Assembly (NCBI RefSeq): GCF_051622035.1
Contig: NC_135357.1
Location: 32,778,191-32,842,190, forward strand
DNA from: Arctopsyche grandis
Taxonomy: Eukaryota; Arthropoda; Insecta; Trichoptera; Hydropsychidae
Length of the DNA stretch: 64,000 bases
Direction of reading: 5' to 3'
Position 1 is the first letter of the stretch. Each line of letters begins with the position of its first letter. The notes below the pieces were generated by a model. That model had not been told where the DNA came from. It did no database searches and saw only the letters and a list, made by a program, of their open reading frames with translations. Positions 29,833-57,231 of this stretch are shown one piece after another. Made by a program: the position numbers and the translations under genes.

Positions 29833-31548
29833 ATGGAATGTAGACTTTGTCTCTGTTCTGTTCCAATTGAATCTTCTGTTTCCATCCACGATAATCCTCA
29901 TTCACTGGTTCAATGCATTTTGACATGCTGTCAGCTGCAAGTCGGTTACAGATACTTTTGAGAAATCAATCGTTAGCTCAACAGAGATTCATTATTATTA
30001 TTTATTTTACAGGTTAATAAAGATGATTTGTTACCAGACACGATATGTCTTTTATGTAAAAACAATCTGAAATTGTTGAACAATTTTAGAAACATTTGTA
30101 TTCAGAGTGAAGAAACACAGAAACTTAGGCTCGCTGAGAGTTACGATATCAAAATAGAAGAAGTTATATTGGAAGATTTAATTTGGGAGGATAAGATTCA
30201 TATTAATTCAACATCGGCCGTTGAAGATGCGATTAATGAATCGGATTCAAGCAATTCAGGGAAAGAATGTTTAGCAGACCATTCAAAGCAAAACGCCTTA
30301 ATAATAAAAAATGAAAATGCTAGGAAAAACTCACAAGTATGACTTCGAAATTTGGCAAGTGTAACAAATATATGTATATAATTGTATAATCTTCGTTTTA
30401 TGTTGCAGACACCTGGAGGAAAACCCATGCAGGAAAACCCATACAAATGTGAAACTTGTTCAAAATCGTTCACTACTAAGCCCACCCTCGTAGAGCATAT
30501 GAATTCACACAAAGGGATAAAACCATACCAATGTGAAATTTGTTTGATTTCGTTCACTCATAGGTCCTCCTTTGGGAGACATGTAAAAACTCACAAAATA
30601 GGAACTGCACACAAGTGCAAAATGTGTTCTAAAACGTTCACTGTTAAACGTAACCTCCTGGATCATGTGAATTCTCACAATGGGATAAAACCATTTCAAT
30701 GTGAAGTTTGTATGACTTCATTCACTCATAAATCTGCCCTCTTGAGACATGTAAAAAATCACCCCGAGGAGAAACAGTTTAAATGTGACATTTGCGCAAA
30801 GTCGTTCGCTCTGAAGTATTTCCTCGTGGATCATTTGGAATCTCACACTGAGGCAGAATCGCACAAATGCGAAATATGTTCTGAATCTTTCACAATTAAA
30901 TCTAAACTTGTGGAGCATATGTATTCCCACAACGGGATAAAATCATACCGATGTAGAGTTTGTTTGATTTCATTCATTCATAGGTCTGCTCTTAGGAAAC
31001 ATGTATTGAAATCTCACACCGAGAAAAAACTGTTCGAATGTGAAACGTGTTCTAAATTGTTTACTACTAAATCTAGCTTCATAGACCATATGAATTCTCA
31101 CAAAGGGATAAAACCACACCAATGTGAAATTTGTTTGATTTCATTCACTCAAAGATCTGCCCTCAAGAGACATATAAAAACTCACACTGGGGCAAAATCG
31201 CACAAATGTGAAATGTGTTCTAAATTTTTCACTGCTAAATCCAATCTAATGGATCATATGAATTCTCACAATGGGTTAAAACCATACCAATGTGATGCGT
31301 GTCTGATTTCATTCACTCATCGGTCTGCCCTGAGGAAACATGTTTTAAAAACTCACACTGAGGAGAGACTGTTCAAATGTGAAATGTGTTCTAAAGTGTT
31401 CACTGCTAAATCTAGCTATGTGGAGCACATGAATTCTCATAATGGGATAAAACCACACAAATGTGAAATTTGTTTGTCGTCATTCACTCATAGTTCTTCC
31501 TTCAAGAGACATGTAAAAACTCATACCGAAGGGAGACGGTCCAAATGA
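29833..31548 (+). CDS. ZAD-C2H2 zinc-finger protein, 13 fingers (copy A)
   Basis: Probable DNA-binding nuclear transcription regulator of the arthropod ZAD family. I model three exons: 29,833-29,940, 30,013-30,336 and 30,409-31,548, all in phase 0 with GT-AG introns of 72 bp each, giving 523 residues. The start is the first ATG, which places Cys3 and Cys6 (CRLC) as the first half of the ZAD zinc site; CLLC at residues 48-51 after the first intron gives the second half. The middle (residues about 75-145) is acidic and Ser-rich. Thirteen C2H2 fingers follow from about residue 158, spaced every 28 residues. They mostly alternate between a CSKxFTxK...HMNSH type and a CLISFTHRS...RHVKTH type, with linkers such as GIKPY instead of TGEKP. 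The donor of intron 1 (GTCGGT) is weak. ZAD domains usually dimerise; target genes cannot be inferred. Confidence 0.85.
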
Positions 31549-33915: not shown

Positions 33916-35379
33916 ATGGAATGTAGACTTTGTCTCTGTTCTGTTCCAGTTGAGTCTTCTGTTTCCATCCACGATTATCCTCATTCACTGGTTCAATGCA
34001 TTTTGACTTGCTGTCAGCTGCAAGTCGGTTACAGATACTTTTGACAAATCAATCGTTAGCTCAACAGAGATTCATTATTATTATTTATATTACAGGTTAA
34101 TACAGATGATTTGTTACCAGACACGATATGTCTTTTATGTAAAAACAATCTGAAATTGTTGAGCAAATTTAGAAACATTTGTATTCAGAGTGAAGAAACA
34201 CACAGACTAAGGCTCGCTGAGAGTTTAGATATCAAAATAGAAGAAGTTATATTGGATGATTTAATTTGGGAGGATGAGATTGATATTAATTCAACATCGG
34301 CCGTTGAAGATGCGACCAATGAATCGGAGTCAAGCAATTCGGGAAAAGAATTTTCAGCAGACCATTCAAAGCAAAACGCCTTAATAGAAAATGAAAATGC
34401 TAGGAAAAACTCACAAGTATGAATTCGAAATTTGGCAAGTGTAACAAATATATGAATATAATTGTATAATATTCGTTTTATGTTGCAGACACCAGGAGGA
34501 AAACCCATGCAGGAAAACCCATACAAATGTGAAACTTGTTCAAAATCGTTAACTACTAAGCCCTCCCTCGTAGAGCATATAAATTCACACAAAGGGATAA
34601 AACCATACCAATGTGAAGTTTGTTTGATTTCATTCACTCATAAGTCCTCCTTTTGGAGACATCTAAAAACTCACAAAACAAGAACTGCACACAAGTGCAA
34701 AATGTGTTCTAAATCATTCATTACTAAGCTCACCCTCGTAAAGCATATGAATTCACACAAAGGGATAAAACCATACCAATGTGAAGTGTGTTTGATTTCA
34801 TTCACTAATAGGACTTCCTTTTGGAGACATGTACAAACTCACAAAACAGGAACTGCATACAAGTGCAAAATGTGTTCTAAATCATTCATTACTAAGCTCA
34901 CCCTCGTAGAGCATATGAATTCACACAAAGGGATAAAACCATACCAATGTGAAGTTTGTTTTTTTTCATTCACTCATAGGTCCTCCTTTTGGAGACATGT
35001 AGAAACTCACAAAAAAGGAACTCCACACAAGTGCAAAATGTGTTCTAAATCATTCATTACTAAGCCCACCCTCGTAAGGCATATGATTTCACATAAAAGG
35101 ATAAAACCATACCAATGTGAAGTTTGTTTGATTTTATTCACTCAAAGGTCTACCCTCAATAAACATGTAAAAACTCACACTGGGGCAAAATCGCACAAAT
35201 GTGAAATATGTTCTAAATTGTTCACTGCTAAATCTTATCTAATGGATCATATGAATTCTCACAATGGGTTAAAACCATACCAATGTGATATGTGTCTGAT
35301 TTCATTCACTTATAAGTCTACCCTGAGGAAACATGTGTTAAACACTCGGTGTTTAACACATGTTTCACATTTAAACTGA
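33916..35379 (+). CDS. ZAD-C2H2 zinc-finger protein, truncated, 9 intact fingers (copy B)
   Basis: Exons 33,916-34,023, 34,096-34,416 and 34,489-35,379 give 439 residues with the same intron positions as copy A. The ZAD cysteines (CRLC, CLLC) are intact. Nine complete C2H2 fingers are followed by a tenth that loses its second histidine when the frame runs into rearranged sequence (ending TRCLTHVSHLN). Three tandem 168-bp units (34,687-34,854, 34,855-35,022, about 35,023-35,190), each encoding two fingers, are nearly identical, so this copy has amplified a finger pair. Stops at 35,377-35,379 and, in the same frame, a TAA near 35,392 separate it from relic fingers. It may still give a shorter protein or be a young pseudogene. 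Confidence 0.75.
35329..35365. repeat. Perfect hairpin that breaks finger 10 of copy B
   Basis: Arms AAACATGTGTTAAACA and its exact reverse complement are separated by the 5-nt loop CTCGG. In copies A and C the corresponding site encodes an ordinary finger with no inverted repeat. The following bases (CACATTTAAACTGAGTCTC) resemble the reverse complement of the finger sequence just downstream, so the change looks like a template-switch inversion during replication. Confidence 0.85.
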
Positions 35380-39401: not shown

Positions 39402-42400
39402 TTAATTATTATCTTCGTTCTGGAACTGCCTGAATGACTGACGAACTGTATTTTGGCCTGAATATTGAGTAGAATTTTCATGGGTTTGATATTTTATTTT
39501 GTATAACAAATTCATGACCTCTAGTCGAAACTCCAAATTTTGCCTCTCGTTCATACTATTAAGGTCGGATACTAAAGACAATAAAAATTTAGTACTGGAA
39601 TCCTCCTCGGGAGGAGCATTGTTTTGTGTCATCGAGTTGATCAAAGCCTCTTGAAATGCCGTCATGTTGTGGCCTTTGTTTTTCTTCGACGTTGTCTTCG
39701 AAGTTAGTGACTCCAATGGAGTTGCGGGGTCGTCAGTAAGATCAGTTGCGGGGTCGTCAGTAAGATCTGTAGTATGTAGAATACTGACTTCAGCACTTGC
39801 GTTGCTCGACGTGGGACGAGATTCCTTTGTGCTTTCCAAAAAGCAAAGAGATTCGACATAAGTGCATTTTCTTTTTTTAAGAGCTGCACCTCCACTCCTT
39901 GTCGTACCAAGCCTCTTTTCTTTTATAAAATAGTCTCTCAAATTCCTCCATTTCTTTTGTAATTCGTTAACTGCAAATAAAAATTAACACAAATTAATCA
40001 CATGTTTTGTTATATATCTATGGCAACTGGAATGAATTTCACCACATTGTCACAGGACTTTTTAATTGGAAGATCAACTGTAGCTGAAATAATTAAAGAA
40101 AATTGTGCGGTTTTCTGGGAGGTGCTACTGCCAGTTGAAATGCCAGAGCCTACCAAAGATTCGTGGCTGACGGTGGCAGAACAATTTTACATTAAAACAA
40201 ATTTCCCAAATTGTATTGGAGCAGTTGACGGTAAACACATACGAATTATCAACCCTGATCGTAGTTGGTCAAATTTCTTATAATTTTTTTTTTCAATAAT
40301 ACTCATGGCAGTAGCAGATTCTAATTTGTGATTTCTCACCATTGATGTTGGATCTTGTGACAAAGAAACGGATAGCAATATTTTCAGAAATTCTAATTTT
40401 GGAAAAAAAACTATATGGGGGTATGTTGGATCTACCCTTCGACAGAAAACTTCTAGATACAACTGGACCAGTACAACCATTTGTACTGCTGGATACAGAA
40501 AAACGCACTTTTAATTACCGTCTGAGCCGAGCGAGAAGGTGTGTTGAATACGCATTCGGTATATTAGTACCACTTTGTGGTACGCGGTTGATGCTTAGTG
40601 GTACGCAAAAGAAAAATCATTAATGGCGGACATGCAGTAATAAATGATTTACAATCATAAAAATAGAGATATTTTTTATATAATTAAAAAACATTATCTT
40701 TACTAATCATAATCGACGTCAGTTTGTACAGTCTATTATCGAAAATCTGGCAAAATCTACAGTTTTCCTCTGATCCGGCATGGATTTTGGAGTGCTTTTT
40801 AAATTTACCCCGTTAGCGCTCCAATAAATAAATAACTTGAATTTGATACTTCAGAACAGCTCGAAAACGATATTTAATATTGCGGATAAAATTGAAAATA
40901 TTATTAGAAAATTAGATTTTTGGAGGCTGTGTATCGAAAAGGAACGATCTGAAGTATTTGAAACCTTACGCAGTGCTTTTCCAAACCTGAAGAAGCAAAC
41001 AATTGGATTTTAAACCCTTTTAATAATGAACATTTTCGGACAGTTACGTCATTATCAATCAAGAAAAAAAAGAACTTAATTGAACTTTCAAGTGATAACA
41101 TTTTAAAAGCTGAATTTAAAAAAATAAGGTTTTAATTTTTGGCTAGATATCAGTGAAGAATATGAACAGCTTGCTGACAAACCGCTTAAATTTATGCTGC
41201 CGTTTACTAGCACTGAACTGGTTGAGAGAGCTTTCTCTTCATATATTTGTATAAAAGACAAATATTGAAATTAAATGCAGTTCCAGACTCAACGGTATAT
41301 CTCGCATAATTTGAACCGAATTAAAAAAAAAATCCTCGAAACAAGTACAAGGATCTTATTAAATTTATTTTATAAGGAGATTTAATTAAGAAAAGAAAAT
41401 AAATGATTTTAATACAAACACAAAATTACAGAGTATGTACTTATAGTAATAGAAGTATGACAAAATAGTAGATAAATATATTAAACTTTGAGCATATTAT
41501 AATTGCGACTCCGCAAATAACTTTTTTTCCACAAAATGCCTTAACAAAACAGATTCATTGCGTCTTCATATTCCTTAAAATGCAAATCTGTACTATATAT
41601 GAAATTACAATTGTAATAACTAAAGCCCGGACCCAGAGGGTACTGCGTATTGTTCAAATGTTGTAAATGCATTGTCAAAGGTTTGCCGAACCTTTTTTAC
41701 AAAGCATTTTCAACAAAGGAACAATAAGCGGCACCTTGGCTATCCTACCCCTAGTAATAACAAACTTCATGAAATACAATAATTTTTATATAGTGGTACA
41801 ATTTAGCATAATGTACTATCAAGTGGTACGCGAGTAAAAAAAGGTTGGGAAACGCTGTATTAGCCAATACATGAACACACTTGTGTGTGTGTCTCGAATA
41901 GGCTGCTAAATCACTGAACCGATTACGATGAAACTTTCAGGATTTGTTGTGTGTATGTCCGGGAAGATTACTGTGAAAAAAAAACGGGAAAAAACGGGAA
42001 CGGAAACGGAAAAAACGGGAATGAGTGTCATTGCAACGCAATAATTTCAAATGTGTTCGCTACCTGCGTTTTTCCGACAAATGGGAACGGGAACGAGAAC
42101 GGGAACGAAAACGGGAATTGCATGCGTTATTGTGGCGTTGCAACGCATGCCGGGTTCAGCTAGTTACTTATAAATAGAGACCGAAATCTGAAGGGGCTGT
42201 TTATTGTTCAAAGATTGTAAATGCATTGTTAAAGGTTTGCCGAACCTTTTTTACAAAGGATTTACAACGATTGAACAATAGGCGGCGCGTTTCCGGCCCC
42301 TTCAGATTCCGACCTCTACTTATAAATTACTTAATATTTCTTATAAATTACTTACTGGTTTCAATGTGTTCATTTTCTGTGAATAATTCCCAATTCTCGT

Positions 42401-44256: not shown

Positions 44257-45240
44257 TTAAAGGGGTGCGTCCAAACGCGATGAAGATTTCGAAAAATACG
44301 CTGGTACTCCAGTAAGATTGCTAAAAAAAATTCGTGCTTGCTGGATTCGCGACGCGGCTTTCTCAACAACTAAATTAAGTTGATGAGCATAACAGTGAAC
44401 TAAGTGTGCATTTTTATAAGTTTGTTTCAAAATTTTCTGTACACCTCCCCTCTCTCCGCTCATTACAGCGGCACCGTCGTAAGTTTGAGCAATAAGTTTT
44501 TCATTGTCATCGTTTAAAACTAGTTTTAATTGTTCAGTAATGCATGCTGCTAAACCTTCTGCGCTCTTATTTTTTTAAAAAAACCCCAAAACCTTTCAAA
44601 AACTTTACCCCCTAATTCGTAACGAAAAACATTAACCTGTTGAAAATGCATCGATACAACGGTTGTTTCATCTGCCATAACAGCTAGACAATCTAAAAGT
44701 TCATTTTGAATAGTTTTTGATGTCCCTTTAAAAACCGAAGAAGTTTGAAAATGTTTTTTTAAAGAATCGTCGAAATTTTGTGAATATTCTAGAAGCCCCC
44801 GAAAAACTCCTGGATTTTTTGAATTATCTCTTTCATCGTGTCCCCTCATTGGCATTTCAAATTTACCGCAAAATTTAACGCAATCAATAATTTTAAATAA
44901 AACAACCCGATTTTTTTTGACGTTTTCGTTATGCTTATCTATTTCCCGCCGATAAGCTTCGCTTAAATGGGTTTTTATGTTAGCCGATCCCAAAATCGTG
45001 AGATTACACACATTTTTTAAGTGTTCGAAACTTCCCTCGTATTTTTTAATTTTATCGTTTAAATGTTTTAAGTCAATAATGATCGTCCAAGATGCTTCGC
45101 CTGGCGACTCGCCTCCAAACAAAAGACACGGATAACAAAATAACGCGTTTTTTTCTCTACATCCCGTTAACCAATTGTATTTTTTATAAATGTCTGGATT
45201 AAATTTTCGCGAGTAACTAAAAGATCTACTAGTTGCAGGC
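44257..45240 (-). pseudogene. hAT transposase (TTF finger, DUF4371-like), broken
   Basis: Read on the minus strand, from about 45,240 after a CACAG acceptor-like site: YSRKFNPDIYKKYNWLTG, then CREKNALFCYPCLLFGGE, the TTF-type zinc finger of this hAT group. Next comes MRGHDERDNSKNPGVFRGLL, then SKTIQNELLDCLAVMADET with the conserved DET, then VNVFRYELGGKVFERFWGF. A frameshift at the A/T run near 44,575 moves to a frame with AQTYDGAAVMSGERGGVQ and HCYAHQLNLVVEKAA. The sequence stops at 44,257 just after FSKSSSR, before the C-terminal dimerisation domain. It cannot make a full transposase. Confidence 0.85.
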
Positions 45241-45389
45241 TGTGAAATAATTAAATTGGGCGCGAGGCAGCCTAATGCTTTTATAGCGACTTTTTCGGTA
45301 AGTTCTAGTCACGAAAAGTGCAAATTTTGTAAATATTTTACTGAATTATTTTTTTCTTCCATTTTTAAAAGAAAAAAAATCTTAATATA

Positions 45390-45586
45390 TGTAGAATTGA
45401 TTTTTAAACGAGCCGTAGGTATAGTTGGTCAAGCTGGGATAGAGTGTGTGTGGTATGCATGGGAAAGACCGGATGCGTGTTGTTATGGTCACTTGTTGGA
45501 GAACAAGCCCGAAGCATGTGTTAATAAATACATAGTTCTGACTTAATCTGCGTTTCACTTGGAATCCTTCACATCCGGATCCTATA
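45390..45586 (+). repeat. 5' LTR
   Basis: Starts TGTAGAATTG and ends near GGATCCTATA. It contains AATAAA at about 45,524, a likely polyadenylation signal, and matches the 3' LTR exactly as far as I can read. The boundary is uncertain by a few bases because TATA-type bases occur on both sides. Confidence 0.88.
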
Positions 45587-45689
45587 TTTGGGGGCTTTGT
45601 CCGGGATGCCCGAAGACATTCCAGTGACAGCCAGAAGCGGTCAGACGACGACGCGGAGTTTTGACAGTTGAGGTTAGGACGCGCGCGCG

Positions 45690-47159
45690 ATGACGAGAAC
45701 GCGTACGACGAAGCCCGTGACGTCGGTGACGTCACGTCAGCGAACACGCCACACGACGATGATGATATCCAAGACGATAACGCCATTGTCAGCGTCAGTT
45801 GTACGTCGGCTAACTGTCGTGGAGATACAGAGGTTCGCGGACTTAGACGAAGATGATGACGACGAGGATGAAGAGGAAGAAGAAGACGAAGTGCCATATT
45901 TTGACAGAGACAAATTCGAGACTTACGCGCCACGGTTTAAGGGGATCGGCGGTGTGCCAATCAGCCAGTGGATTGAGCACATGGAAGAATTTGCGAAGTT
46001 CTTCCACTGGACGCCCCTGCAGCAACTGGTCTACGGGAGAGTATATTGCGTAGGAACAGCGAGAATGTTCCTGGATTCAGAAGGGATAATTATATCATGG
46101 ACTATCCTTAAGCAGAAGCTGATAGAAGAGTTCCAGTGGGATGACGAAGAGCTCGTCTTTGAAGAACGAGAAATGCTTGCTCAAGCAGAGCCCATTGACT
46201 CCGATTCAAGCGGGGCCGGTGAAACACCAAAGATGTCAAATGGTACACAGCCTGCAGCATCGCCGTCTCAAACTACTTTAGACGCTTCTTCAGTGCGACT
46301 AGACACGGGTGAAACAGATATGACTAAATCACAAGAAGAAATAGGAGAACCAGTCAGTATTCCAACACAAGAGGACGGTGTGGACACGAGTGAAAAAGAT
46401 ATGACTAAATTACAAGAAGAAATAAGAGAACCAGTCAGTATTCCAACACAAGAGGACGGTGTGGACACGAGTGAAAAAGATATGACTAAATTACAAGAAG
46501 AAATAAGAGAACCAGTCAGTATTCCAACACAAGAGGACGATGCGAACATGGCTGATGGAGATGTAAACAGGGCCGATGTAAGTGTGAACAGTGATGGTTT
46601 GCACAGAAAAAGACCTTTGCAGCAACGGGCTTCACGAGAGATGTCTGCTCAAAGAGAACTCATTGTTTCCAATAATGAAGAGGACGATGCGAACATGGCT
46701 GATGTAAGTGTGAACAGTGATGGTTTGCACAGAAAAAGACTTTTGGATTACGGAGACATATCATTTTCAAATACAGATGAACCACCCGATGATCAATTTG
46801 GAAAAGGATCTAAGGATTATAGTCATTTGAAGAATTCTGAAGATGAGAATAAAGAAAAGGAGAAACATAAAGACAAAGAGAAAGATATGGCTAAATCACA
46901 AGAAGGATTAAGGGACCCAGTCAAAATTTCAACACCAAAAGACACTGTATTCACTTTCAAGCTCGGTCGTAGTCGGATTGATGTTAATTCAATGGAAAAG
47001 AAAATAGAACCATGGATTGAGAAAAGACTTACTGGATGTATCAGTGAGCTAGAACCAATATGTGTTGACTTCATTTATGGTAAATTACTAGCAGAAAATC
47101 TGTGGGGTGACGGCAGATTCATCGGATGGTCACGGAGAATCGCCGCGGGCATTGGATAG
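45690..47159 (+). CDS. Gag-like N-terminus fused to RBM25-like PWI domain
   Basis: 489 codons from ATG at 45,690; the exact start is uncertain because the upstream frame is also open. Residues about 55-75 are highly acidic (EDDDDEDEEEEEDE). Residues about 77-155 read as a retrotransposon Gag capsid segment (FETYAPRFKGIGGVPISQWI ... SWTILKQKLIEEF). Next come three 27-residue repeats with EKDMTKLQEEIREPVSIPTQ, then KRLLDYGDISFS, an EK/KDK-rich stretch, and near the end MEKKIEPWIEKRL plus EPICVDFIYGKLLAEN. That last block matches the PWI pattern (ME-x2-I-x-PWI-x-K, then VDF-x3-K) of the splicing factor RBM25. There is no zinc knuckle, protease or polymerase. The Gag match is by pattern. I infer that the original Gag C-terminus was replaced by a host-derived segment. 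Confidence 0.7.
   Translation: MTRTRTTKPVTSVTSRQRTRHTTMMISKTITPLSASVVRRLTVVEIQRFADLDEDDDDEDEEEEEDEVPYFDRDKFETYAPRFKGIGGVPISQWIEHMEEFAKFFHWTPLQQLVYGRVYCVGTARMFLDSEGIIISWTILKQKLIEEFQWDDEELVFEEREMLAQAEPIDSDSSGAGETPKMSNGTQPAASPSQTTLDASSVRLDTGETDMTKSQEEIGEPVSIPTQEDGVDTSEKDMTKLQEEIREPVSIPTQEDGVDTSEKDMTKLQEEIREPVSIPTQEDDANMADGDVNRADVSVNSDGLHRKRPLQQRASREMSAQRELIVSNNEEDDANMADVSVNSDGLHRKRLLDYGDISFSNTDEPPDDQFGKGSKDYSHLKNSEDENKEKEKHKDKEKDMAKSQEGLRDPVKISTPKDTVFTFKLGRSRIDVNSMEKKIEPWIEKRLTGCISELEPICVDFIYGKLLAENLWGDGRFIGWSRRIAAGIG
46297..46539 (+). repeat. Three tandem 81-bp repeats in the Gag-PWI ORF
   Basis: In-frame units of 81 bp encode the 27-residue repeat. Copies two and three are identical or nearly so, and the first has a few differences (MTKSQEEIG for MTKLQEEIR). 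A diverged fourth unit (DMAKSQEGLRDPVKISTPKD) lies near 46,885. The repeat keeps the reading frame open, which suggests the ORF was under coding constraint when it expanded. Confidence 0.9.
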
Positions 47160-47843
47160 AATTTAAGTTGTACCGATGGAAGGGAAGTGTGCGTTTGTGA
47201 ATTAGAGAATAAGTGAAATACCTGGAGGGTTTTTAGTTAAGCCTTACTTGTAATTTGATGATTGAAAAGTGTAATGTTTTATTGCTTATTCTAGTATTTT
47301 TTGGGAAGTGCTTTGTATATTGAATCATGTTTTAATTTGGTTACATGCTTATATAAGATAACTGTATTGAAATGTAATTCTAGTAATGTTTTAAAATGTG
47401 ATTGTTTCCGATGTAAAGATTTAATTTGTTATAATTGTAATTGTTATGTAAATTGTAAAATGATTGATGTATAAGTGTATTGAAATGTAGTTGTGATGAT
47501 GATTGTAATTGTGATTTAAATTGTAATTGTGACAATTGAAAGCATGTTTAGAAGAATATAAGATGATTTTATGGAATGGAAGATTAAACATTGTTGAGGA
47601 TGATAGAGGAAATGTTTTAAAAGAATGTAAGATGATACATTGTATAGAGTGGAAGATGAAATGTAAAAGAATGTGAGATGAAACATTGTTGAGGATGATA
47701 GAGGAAATGTTTTAAAAGAATGTAAGATGATACATTGTATAGAGTAGAAGATGAAATGTAAAAGAATGTGAGATGAAATGCTGTAAACATATAAAAGACG
47801 AAGAATGTCATCCGAGGGCGAATGACAGTCAGGAATGACCGAA
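47160..47843 (+). other. Noncoding 3' region of the LTR element, with 95-bp tandem repeats
   Basis: Low-complexity T/G/A-rich DNA with no ORF of note on the element strand. Two tandem copies of a unit of about 95 bp (from about 47,586 to 47,780) contain AAATGTTTTAAAAGAATG and GATGATACATTGTATAG. A GAGGGCGAATGACAGTC phrase lies just before the 3' LTR. Confidence 0.75.
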
Positions 47844-48040
47844 TGTAGAATTGATTTTTAAACGAGCCGTAGGTATAGTTGGTCAAGCTGGGATAGAGTG
47901 TGTGTGGTATGCATGGGAAAGACCGGATGCGTGTTGTTATGGTCACTTGTTGGAGAACAAGCCCGAAGCATGTGTTAATAAATACATAGTTCTGACTTAA
48001 TCTGCGTTTCACTTGGAATCCTTCACATCCGGATCCTATA
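47844..48040 (+). repeat. 3' LTR
   Basis: Same sequence as the 5' LTR, from TGTAGAATTG to GGATCCTATA, with AATAAA near 47,978. The downstream base pattern TATATTTAAATAAA belongs to the interrupted hAT element. Confidence 0.88.
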
Positions 48041-48302
48041 TATATTTAAATAAAAATTACGAGAAAAAGTAAAACAGATTTGAAAAAAGTTTGCTGTTAT
48101 CAAAATGAAAACGACTCACCGAATATTTGATGAGGGCTCGTACACAACCAATTAGGAGTAACGAAAACGAATAAAGCTGTGATCGTGCGATTCAACTAAT
48201 CAAATGTAAGATCAAGCGCGCGAAATCTTACACAAACTGACAGATGAATGTTGTTTAACAGGCGAAGGCTGCCGACTATCCAGCCCAAAACGGCAGAGTG
48301 AG

Positions 48303-48852: not shown

Positions 48853-50047
48853 TTTATTTATTTATTTATTATTTATTTGGAAAATTTACAGTTTATTATG
48901 TTACATAGATTGATAGTAAAAAAAATATAATTATTTTAAGTAAACCATTAATAATTTTCGCATATAGGTAAAAAAAGAAAAGCTTAAACATTTAAAATAA
49001 GAAACAAAAATGATAATAGAGTAAGATAATTAGAGAAAACAAAAAGAAAAAATAGAAATAACAGTATAATAAAAATATCAAAATAATAAGAATAACAAAA
49101 CGATAATAATATGATAAAAATTATGAAATAATAAAAATAATATAATATATAACAATAAACAAAAAGAAAAAAAAATACATCAAAATAAAAATTCATAATC
49201 ACAATCGTAAATTTTCAATAAAATTAATCATCGAAAAACAAATTTGCAATAATCACTCTAGCTTGTATAGCATTAATATTAAATAAGTCAAACATAGAAA
49301 TTGTAGAAAGTAGTTTGTTGACGGTGGAGCTTGCACGCCAGATGAATGAGCTTCTTCCATAATTAGAAAAAATATTAGGTATGTAAAGGAGCTCATTACA
49401 TCTGGTTATTCTATTTGGCACACGCAATGATAGTCTGCTCAATAATTGAGGACAGTCGATCGAGCCGTTAAGGATGTTCAAAATTATTGAGATGTCAGCT
49501 ATCTCCCTTCTTTTGACAAGTGGAAGCAGATGCTGACACCTACAAGCATCTTCATAGGATGTATAGGATAATCCAAAACGGCTGCCAATGTAACTCAAGA
49601 ATCTCTTCTGGATGCGCTCCAATCTGTCTCTTGCACCAGAGTACTCTGGGTTCCAAACTTGGGATGCAAACTCAACAATACTTCTTACGTATGCACAGTA
49701 TAGTATTTTGTATGATTTAATAGAAATAAAGCATTTGGAGGACCGGATGACGAACCCGAGAGCCTTCGACGCTCGAGCTACAGCATTGTCAATATGTTTA
49801 CTAAAGGATAGATCAGAGTTTAATAAGACTCCCAAATCCCTAATTTCCAATACCCTTGTAAGTCTATGTCCGTTGATTGAATGAGGAAAGTCAATTGGAC
49901 ATAGTTTTCTGGTGAAGGATATGCAGGAGCATTTTGCTACATTAATTTCCAACTTATTTATGCTGCAATAAGCCTCTAGCCTGAACAAATCCTCTTGTAA
50001 GGCCAAAGCATCATTTCGGTTGTTTATTCTCTTGAAAAACTTCATAA
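48853..50047 (-). mobile_element. 5'-truncated non-LTR retrotransposon in Harbinger 2
   Basis: Placed by comparison with Harbinger 1, where GAGATGCTATAT runs directly into CCCCTGAAGAAAGG. Here about 1.2 kb separates them. The 3' end of the element faces left and consists of a (TAAA)n-like tail (TTTATTTATTTATT on +). The right end is the truncated 5' side. A short deletion at the right junction (ACCCGAAG for CCCCTGAAG) and no clear target duplication suggest imperfect integration. Confidence 0.85.
49224..50045 (-). pseudogene. Non-LTR reverse transcriptase, C-terminal third
   Basis: 273 codons open to the truncated end. The sequence holds LRLEAYCSINKLEIN-type residues (LFRLEAYCSINKLEINVAKC), GHRLTRVLEIRDLGVLL with the conserved DLGV, KALGFVIRSS, VRSIVEFASQVWNP and RDRLERIQKRFLSYIG, then LVKRREIADISIILNILNG and a VPNR tail. 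These follow the catalytic YADD region of Jockey- or CR1-type reverse transcriptases; YADD itself lies in the missing part. Long and uninterrupted, so relatively recent. A related tail fragment occurs at 57,430-60,262. Confidence 0.85.
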
Positions 50048-50202
50048 CCCGAAGAAAGGATAACTGTTACTTTGAGGTAAGGAAAACAATATTATTTATT
50101 TTTAGACTTATTTATTGAAAAAACACAATAAAAACACATAATAAAATAAAAGGTAAAAATGACAGTAAAATAAAAAATTCAAATTGTGCACAAAACCTTT
50201 TC

Positions 50203-50780
50203 TTAAGTATTATTTTCGTTCTCGGTTAAGCTGCCTGACTGATTGACGAACGAATGACCTGATTCTGGTGAATTTATAGTGGGAAAATTATACTCCGTTG
50301 TATTGTGGTCTGCATATTGAATTGAATAGGTTTGATATTTTATTCTGTATAATACATTCATGACCTCTAGTCGAAACTCTACATTTTGTCTTTCATTCAT
50401 ACCATTAAGATCCGATACTAAGGATAGTAAAAATTGTGTGCTAAAATCTTCTTTGGATTTGGTATTGCTTTGTGTAATCGAGCTGATTAGTGTTTCCTGA
50501 AATGCCGTCATGTTGGGTTTGTTTTTCTTCGACATTGTCTTCGAAGTTGGCGACTCCAACGGAGTTGCGAAGTCGTCAGTAACATCTGTAATATTGACTT
50601 CAGCACTAACATTGCTCGACGTGGGTCGAGATTCTTTAGTGCCATCTAAAAATCGAAGAGATTCGACATACGTGCACATCCTTTTTTTAGGAGCTACACC
50701 TCCACTCCTTGTCGTATCGAACCTCTTTTCTTTGATATGATAATCCCTTAAATTCATCCATTTCTTTTGTAATTCGTTAA
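50203..50780 (-). pseudogene. MADF-BESS exon 2 of Harbinger 2
   Basis: The open exon begins at 50,780 after a TTTGCAG acceptor on the minus strand. It encodes ELQKKW-MNLRDYHIKEKRF, TYVESLRFLDGT and the BESS motif FLLSLVSDLNGMNERQ. It is a close relative of the intact copy in Harbinger 1 and has a longer C-terminus (ends LTENENNT). The exon itself is open, but its exon 1 (51,756-51,912) is frameshifted, so the gene is dead. Confidence 0.75.
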
Positions 50781-50858
50781 CTGCAAATAATAATCGTAAG
50801 TGAGATATAAAAGAAGTTTGAAAAAATTAACACAAATTAATCACATGTTTTGTTATAG

Positions 50859-55182: not shown

Positions 55183-57231
55183 ATGGAATGTAGACTTTGT
55201 CTCTGTTCTGTTCCAATTGAGTCTTCTGTTTTCATCCACGATAATCCTCATTCACTGGTTCAATGCATTTTGACATGCTGTCAGCTGCAAGTCGGTTACA
55301 GATACTTTTGACAAATCAATCGTTAGCTCAACAGAGATTCATTATTATTATTTATTTTACAGGTTAATAAAGATGATTTGTTACCAGACACGATATGTCT
55401 TTTATGTAAAAACAATCTGAAATTGTTGAGCAAATTTAGAAACATTTGTATTCAGAGTGACGAAACACAGAGACTAAGGCTCGCTGAGAGTTTAGATATC
55501 AAAATAGAAGAAATTATATTGGATGATTTAATTTTGGAGGATGAGATTGATATTAATTCAACATCGGCCGTTGAAGATGCAACCAATGAATCGGAGTCGA
55601 GCAATTCGGGGAAAGAATTTTCAGCAGACCATTCAAAGCAAAACGCCTTAATAGAAAATGAAAATGCTAAGAAAAGCTCACAAGTATGAATTCGAAATTT
55701 GGCAAGTGTAACAAATATATGTATATAATTGTATAATCTTCGTTTTATGTTGCAGACACCTGGAGGAAGACCCATGCAGGAAAACCCATACAAATGTGAA
55801 ACTTGTTCAAAATCGTTCACTACTAAGACCTCCCTCGTAGAGCATATGAATTCACACAAAGGGATAAAACCATACCAATGTGAAGTTTGTTTGATTTCAT
55901 TCACTCATAGGATCTCCTTTTGGAGACATGTAAAAACTCACAAAATAGGAACTGCACTAAAGTGCCAAATGTGTTCTAAAACGTTCACTAATAAACGTAA
56001 CCTCCTGGATCATATGAATTCTCACAATGGGATGAAACCATTCCAATGTGAAATTTGTATGACTTCATTCACTCATAAATCAGCCCTCTTGAGACATGTA
56101 AAAAGTCACCCCGAGGAGAAACTGTTTAAATGTGACATTTGTACAAAGTCGTTCTATATGAAGTATTTTCTCGTGGATCATTTGAAATCTCACACTGAGG
56201 TAGAATCCCACAAATGCGATATATGTTCTGAATCGTTCATAATTAAATCTAAACTTGTGGAACATATGTATTCCCACAACGGGATAAAATCATACCAATG
56301 TAAAGTTTGTTTGATTTCATTCATTCATAGGTGTGCCCTCAGGAAACATGTATTCAAATCTCACACCGAGAAAAAACTGTTCAAATGCAAAACGTGTTCT
56401 AAATTGTTTACTACTAAATCTAGCTTCAAAGACCATATAAATTCTCACAAAGGGATAAAACCGCACCAATGTGAAATTTGTTTGATTTCATTCACTCAAA
56501 AGTCTGCCCTCAGGAGACATGAAAAATCTCACACTGGGGCAAAATCGCACAAATGTGAAATGTGTTCTAAAATGTTCATTGCTAAATCTTATCTAATGGA
56601 TCATATGAATTCTCACAATGGGTTAAAACCACACCAATGTAAAGTGTGCCTGATTTCATTCACTCATAGGTCCTCCTTATGGAGACATGTAAAAACTCAC
56701 AAAATAGGAACTGCACACAAGTGCAAAATATGTTCTAAATCATTCATTACTAAGCCCACTCTCGTAGAGCATATGAATTCACACAAAGGGATAAAACCAT
56801 ACCAATGTAATGTTTGTTTGATTTCATTCGCTAAAAGGTCTACCCTCAATAAACATGTAAAAACTCACACTGGGGAAAAATCGCACAAATGTGAAATGTG
56901 TTCTAAATTATTCTCTTCTAAATCTTATCTAATGGATCATATGAATTCTCACAATGGGTTAAAACCATACAAATGTGAAGTGTGCCTGATTTCATTCACT
57001 CGCAGGTCTGGTCTGAAGCGACATGTTTTAATAACTCACTCTGAGGGGATACTGTTCAATTGTGAAATGTGTTCTAAAGTGTTCACTGCTAAATCTACCT
57101 TTGTGGAGCATATGAATTCTCACAGCGGGATACAACCACACCAATGTAGAGTTTGTTTGACTTCATTCACTCATAGTTCTTCCCTCAAGAGACATTTAAA
57201 AACTCATACCAAAGGGAGACGGTCCAAATGA
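55183..57231 (+). CDS. ZAD-C2H2 zinc-finger protein, 17 fingers (copy C)
   Basis: Probable nuclear DNA-binding regulator. Exons 55,183-55,290, 55,363-55,683 and 55,756-57,231 in phase 0 give 634 residues. ZAD zinc ligands are Cys3/Cys6 (CRLC) and the CLLC pair at about residues 48-51. The linker is acidic and Ser-rich (SESSNSGKEFSADHS). Seventeen C2H2 fingers begin at about residue 157, mostly alternating the CSK...HMNSH and CLISFTHRS...RHVKTH types. This is the longest copy and has no lesion that I can see. Compared with copy A it has extra finger pairs in the second half (fingers 11-14). The frame ends GRRSK and TGA, followed by the shared relic fingers to about 57,358. Expression cannot be judged from sequence. 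Confidence 0.87.

Follow-up and report, generated by a model that had tools for sequence, protein, structure and literature searches.

Structure of the element

The window analysed here, a stretch of 64,000 nt from Arctopsyche grandis contig NC_135357.1 within which all coordinates below are positions, contains an LTR retrotransposon at 45390-48041, recognised by its direct terminal repeats and a target-site duplication. The repeats (45389-45587 and 47843-48041) agree over 199 bp without a mismatch. Within these shared 199 bp we place a 5' LTR (45390-45586, forward strand, TGTAG...CCTATA) that matches a 3' LTR (47844-48040, forward strand) found in the terminal repeat comparison. The duplicated target site, as read from the sequence, is TATA (left copy at 45386-45389, right copy at 48041-48044, neither assigned to a strand). 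A 4-bp match of this kind arises in 1.7% of random position pairs, with 300-bp flanks and three registers allowed.

An AATAAA polyadenylation-type signal lies within the LTR (45523-45528, forward strand) and a sequence resembling a primer-binding site, TGGGGGCTTTGTCCGGGAT (45589-45607, forward strand), adjoins the 5' LTR. The latter may correspond to a tRNA-Pro primer site, from which it would differ by one changed and one inserted base; a tRNA search of the whole window detected no tRNA gene with which TGGGGGCTTTGTCCGGGAT could be compared. The element encodes a single sense ORF of at least 70 aa (489 aa). Because there is no further sense ORF of 70 aa or more, and hence no pol ORF, the element is called non-autonomous. 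It is probably an LTR retrotransposon of the Gypsy type. Identical LTRs and a missing pol had both been described in an earlier, sequence-only reading of this DNA, and both descriptions hold.

Immediately 5' of the 3' LTR at 47844 there is no purine run of at least 9. The sole run of this length in 47160-47843 is GGAAGGGAAG (47178-47187, forward strand), which is followed by TG and would be a polypurine tract in the expected position only if the LTR were about 854 bp long. In such an anatomy, the captured sequence described below would be the same, the LTR would span 47188-48041 with GGAAGGGAAG before it and a TATA box at 47790, and the copy at 45390 would be R-U5 only, leaving this element copy with no promoter of its own. 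The purine tract does abut the TG at 47188, while none abuts 47844; the possible promoter box TATAAAAG (47790-47797, forward strand), which holds the only TATAAAA of the element, lies about 50 bp upstream of the repeated part; and 47190-47790 forms a C-poor compositional unit. However, 26% of shuffles contain a purine run of at least 10 with TG directly after it and 11.6% contain TATAAAAG, so neither is rare, and the TATA duplication (1.7% by chance) and the TG start suit an LTR of 197 bp. We lean against the long LTR, and equally against an R-U5-only 5' copy, while regarding both as quite possible. Within the 3' noncoding part of the element (47190-47789), C makes up 2-7% and G 18-27% of each 100 bp, and tandem repeats of 46, 49 and 95 bp are present.

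A Gag-like start and an RBM25-like tail in one frame

The ORF (45690-47159, forward strand, 489 aa, stop-to-stop from 45678) runs in frame from a Gag-like start to an RBM25-like tail. The earlier claim of a single ORF with MEKKIEPWIEKRL and EPICVDFIYGKLLAEN is confirmed, as both are present in it at these coordinates. By eye, its start resembles what we take to be the Gypsy Gag pattern, and a segment at 45891-46139 (forward strand) is like the first lobe of a capsid and is suitably placed after the primer site. Searches of the ORF against Pfam and against PDB sequences returned no Gag match. The structure of the Gag part was modelled poorly from the single sequence (mean pLDDT 54.2), and a Foldseek search with it returned 38 matches from PDB and 145 viral ones at E<=10, none of them at E<=0.001. 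The second capsid lobe and the zinc knuckle that we would presumably expect in a Gag protein are not evident in the ORF. The likeness of the ORF start to Gag is one seen by eye, and Pfam, PDB and fold searches lent it no support. A scan against NCBIfam detected no family at E<=1. Two sub-threshold scores for PF17549 (10.9 and 14.8 bits, cut-off 25) were attributed to an acidic stretch and set aside.

The tail was compared with 177,635 distinct PDB sequences using phmmer (last 184 residues, reporting at E<=10), and only four matches were returned. The first is human RBM25 (3v53, E=1.4e-6), aligned without gaps over 58 residues; the others are SRm160 (E=0.22), the only other PWI protein among the four, and two formyltetrahydrofolate dehydrogenases (E=0.43 and 0.45). 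The alignment with RBM25 (46923-47096, forward strand) is co-linear, has 23 of 58 residues identical (40%) and 33 of 58 positive, and covers residues 20-77 of the 119-residue chain, taking in an N-terminal extension and the beginning of the PWI domain. Its local score is 108, compared with a best score of 53 among 5000 shuffles of residues 300-489; the Gag part and the middle part of the ORF score 25 and 21, respectively. The tail is closer to RBM25 than to SRm160, both by E-value and by local score (108 versus 67), the SRm160 score coming from a shorter piece (43 versus 58 residues). The match also extends upstream of the PWI core, where KISTPKDTVFTFKL is aligned with KIPTAKPELFAYPL, and because it takes in this stretch we consider the tail to be RBM25-like and not generically PWI-like. 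The motif KRLLDYGDI, which the sequence-only reading likened to RBM25, presumably belongs to the same resemblance.

Although the tail has this 58-residue match with human RBM25, identity is limited to 40%, and the ORF contains no match for chain residues 78-119, where the second part of PWI lies. Since the match stops at residue 77 of 119, the PWI domain is cut; from the alignment, about half of it is predicted to be present, with the match ending after the VDF helix. In Pfam, neither the whole ORF nor the 184-aa tail gave a PWI row, and three short pieces scored 13.5, 13.6 and 14.5 bits against PF01480, below the cut-off of 22. Only positions 2-30 of the 72 in this profile are matched, and such truncation accounts for the low scores. 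The structure model of the PWI part, also from the single sequence, is poor (mean pLDDT 41.9).

The sequence-only reading had proposed an RBM25-type PWI tail by which a Gag particle could come to carry a splicing domain, and had suggested an HMM search against PF01480 as a check. The resemblance to RBM25 stands, whereas a complete PWI domain is not present, and the HMM check yielded no score above threshold. Formally this is an outcome that the earlier reading had named as a refutation, but the truncation explains the shortfall. The particle-borne splicing domain is not supported, with the PWI domain cut and the Gag identity unconfirmed by tools: as the domain is incomplete, a role of the fusion protein in splicing is improbable. 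Elsewhere in the window, tblastn with the tail gave two matches, at 32825-32676 (E=0.019) and 61589-61473 (E=0.14), which we rejected as chance; both are gapped, the first contains a stop codon, and the two were present in two runs and absent from one pairwise run.

Extent of the putative captured block

From the fall in GC at third codon positions (GC3) and the open frame, a captured block of 295 codons may be placed at 46215-47099 (forward strand). In overlapping windows of 40 codons, GC3 is 0.47-0.70 for windows starting at codons 1-141 and 0.20-0.42 for those starting at codons 151-451. Because of this drop, the left edge is placed within about 46110-46230, and the change in composition there suits an inserted block. 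GC3 marks the right edge poorly, as the last window (0.41) is still inside the range of the block (up to 0.42). This edge is placed at 47096-47099 because the match to RBM25 does not go beyond 47096 and overall GC increases, from 0.33 in the 100 bp before 47090 to 0.51 in the 100 bp that begin there. The end of the ORF downstream of this point (47100-47159, forward strand) is GC-richer, has no match to RBM25 and is perhaps residual element sequence.

The block is open in the ORF frame, while each of the other five frames contains 7-29 stops, and none of 2000 shuffles is open. Homology directly covers 174 of its approximately 885 bp (46923-47096). The remainder of the roughly 0.89 kb, all of it open, would belong to the block as well, an assignment that is helped by the related 81-bp repeats described below.

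In-frame duplications and the age of the capture

The block contains an 81-bp tandem repeat (46302-46539, forward strand, 2.9 in-frame copies) that is related to the segment just 5' of the PWI match: 46316-46376 and 46883-46943 are 80% identical over 61 bp. We compared the copies over the best-aligned part of each 81-bp unit, its first 63 bp, the dropped 18 bp being more divergent. Between the repeat copies and the PWI-proximal copy, 12-13 of these 63 sites differ (2 synonymous and 10-11 non-synonymous), giving dS of 0.18 and dN of 0.23-0.26, so that dN is not below dS in these small samples. Over whole units, 23-25 of the 81 sites differ from the PWI-proximal copy. In a second duplicate pair, 5 of 54 sites differ (1 synonymous and 4 non-synonymous).

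The identity of the terminal repeats suggests that the insertion is recent. The capture is probably older, because the in-frame duplicates inside the block have diverged. The earlier description of the element as a recent transducer of a host gene fragment thus survives for the insertion, which does look recent given the identical repeats, and not for the capture, given the 12-13 of 63 and 23-25 of 81 sites that differ. By a substitution-only estimate, 0.1 neutral substitutions per site would leave 295 codons open with a probability of 0.012, and 0.2 with one of 0.00015. As an open frame is this improbable under neutrality, either some constraint has acted on the frame or the divergence predates the capture and goes back to the donor gene.

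The first of these options would be expected if a PWI-tailed Gag were an established functional architecture, in which an old captured tail has been kept as useful to the element. The tail could then be an RNA-binding substitute for a lost nucleocapsid, or a tether to host RNA-processing factors. The ORF has indeed stayed open despite 12-13 differences in 63 sites between copies of one captured segment, the duplications have preserved the frame, and the chance of no stop in the 295 codons is only about 1.2% or 0.015% at the two levels of divergence considered. Nevertheless, dN is no lower than dS (0.23-0.26 and 0.18), with 2 synonymous and 10-11 non-synonymous changes in the one comparison and 1 and 4 in the other, the PWI domain is incomplete, and the divergence could stem from the donor gene. 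We consider a functional tail unlikely, in either of these roles. Also quite unlikely, in our judgement, is a fuller scenario in which, in a lineage of animal retrotransposons, part of a host splicing factor took the place of the second half of Gag and the fused frame stayed open when duplications followed, with the Lys/Glu-rich linker and the half-PWI acting as a substitute RNA-binding or host-tethering tail.

A probable origin by template switching

The explanation that we favour, and regard as probable, is that an LTR element took up a fragment of RBM25 mRNA by template switching and was mobilised by a helper pol. During reverse transcription in the particle, the enzyme would have switched from the gag RNA of the element to a co-packaged RBM25 mRNA and then back. 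The remaining gag and all of pol would thereby have given way to RBM25 coding sequence of about 0.89 kb, joined in frame, so that a single ORF leads from a Gag-like start through a Lys/Glu-rich linker into the beginning of the RBM25 PWI domain. In-frame duplication has affected segments of the block, and the present copy would have been inserted recently, with an autonomous relative providing the enzymes in trans. In favour of this explanation are the RBM25 match, the fall in GC3, the open block and the identical repeats with their flanking TATA. The sub-threshold PF01480 scores, the Gag start unconfirmed by tools, the lack of a purine tract abutting the 3' LTR, the small share of the block (174 of about 885 bp) with direct homology and the poorly marked right edge in GC3 count against it.

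Instead of template switching on a mature mRNA, the block could have been acquired by read-through transduction of an adjacent RBM25 gene or by recombination at the DNA level. The former is reported for LTR elements beside template switching in the account of PMC13317346, and the latter is an alternative that our own analysis raises. Yet the block reads through 295 codons in a single open frame with no obvious intron, and the sequence lying between it and the 3' repeat has a different composition. We judge both routes improbable. That the PWI resemblance is itself due to chance is extremely improbable: every piece submitted to Pfam did fall below the PWI cut-off, but the match is co-linear, ungapped and 58 residues long, has E=1.4e-6 among 177,635 sequences, and scores 108 where none of 5000 shuffles exceeded 53.

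We detected no relatives of the whole ORF, the Gag part or the PWI part in viral_contigs, nor of the PWI and Gag parts in genome_contigs, nor of the tail among plasmid sequences. As these collections consist of viral, prokaryotic and plasmid sequence, and as close relatives alone are detectable in the contig scans, the negative results carry little weight.

Comparison with known systems

TR-GAG elements of plants are non-autonomous and carry gag without pol, as the present element would, and maize Bs1 is non-autonomous too. To our knowledge, the definition of TR-GAG elements includes no host-derived tail, unlike what is seen here. Capture of host sequence by LTR elements is itself already known. 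Template switches in which the RNA of an LTR element and a cellular mRNA take part have been described (PMC5408686), and the capture of host mRNAs by LTR elements is known in plants and animals (PMC8232201). In metazoans, LTR-mediated retroposition (Tan et al. 2016, as cited in PMC8232201 and PMC9674220) likewise involves chimeric cDNA of an LTR element and a cellular mRNA; the present case is known from the element copy alone.

Among the cases that we found, maize Bs1 and Pxyfem are the nearest, as far as they are portrayed in the accounts cited here. Bs1, too, is an LTR element that has transduced fragments of host genes and has a hybrid ORF; it differs in being from a plant and in having three donor genes, whereas here there is one recognisable donor, with in-frame duplications (PMC13317346, PMC7264820). 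In Pxyfem of Plutella xylostella, partial PxyMasc cDNAs lie next to the gag sequence of an LTR retrotransposon, so that, as proposed here, a host cDNA fragment is combined with gag in an insect, and template switching is what its authors propose (PMC9674220). Pxyfem is described as W-linked multicopy clusters that lie next to fossil remnants of elements and give rise to silencing RNAs (PMC9674220), in contrast to the present element with its identical terminal repeats and fused ORF. In the one literature collection searched, judged by titles and the openings of abstracts, we found no paper on a retrotransposon bearing RBM25 or PWI sequence. An apparently young animal element with an in-frame fragment of a splicing factor would lend itself to dating a capture relative to an insertion. 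It would also be suited to examining switch points, and to asking whether captured tails are selected or just tolerated.

Neighbourhood of the element

A 28.8-kb array of an 85-bp satellite (4-28782, about 337 copies) occupies the start of the window. The array is asymmetric between strands, with a GC skew of 0.52-0.59 in the first seven 4-kb steps, and is rich in GGTTAGG, which to us recalls the TTAGG telomere repeat of insects. An Rfam search of 28000-64000 gave no match at the gathering score.

Three copies of a zinc-finger gene (29977-31548, 34060-35379 and 55327-57231) are very similar by eye. The third, the only one scanned, matches zf-AD with E=2.8e-6, its 27.9 bits falling just short of the cut-off of 28. 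Taken with the TTAGG-like satellite and the MADF-BESS fragments described below, this gene suggests insect DNA. Minisatellites of 25 bp with an SVPDPDSF-like reading lie 3' of the zinc-finger genes at about 31900, 35927 and 60708.

The LTR element lies just upstream of an ORF on the reverse strand (44257-45308) that matches DUF4371 (E=1.8e-6; 28.4 bits, cut-off 32.1) and, weakly, DUF659 (E=0.044); we take these fragments to be like a hAT-type transposase. A 280-aa ORF on the reverse strand (49224-50066) resembles, by eye, the C-terminal region of a reverse transcriptase of the non-LTR type and has no Pfam match at E<=1. Two related MADF-BESS fragments, both on the reverse strand (39402-39983 and 50203-50826), match BESS above the cut-off (E=1.7e-7 and 7.8e-5) and MADF below it.
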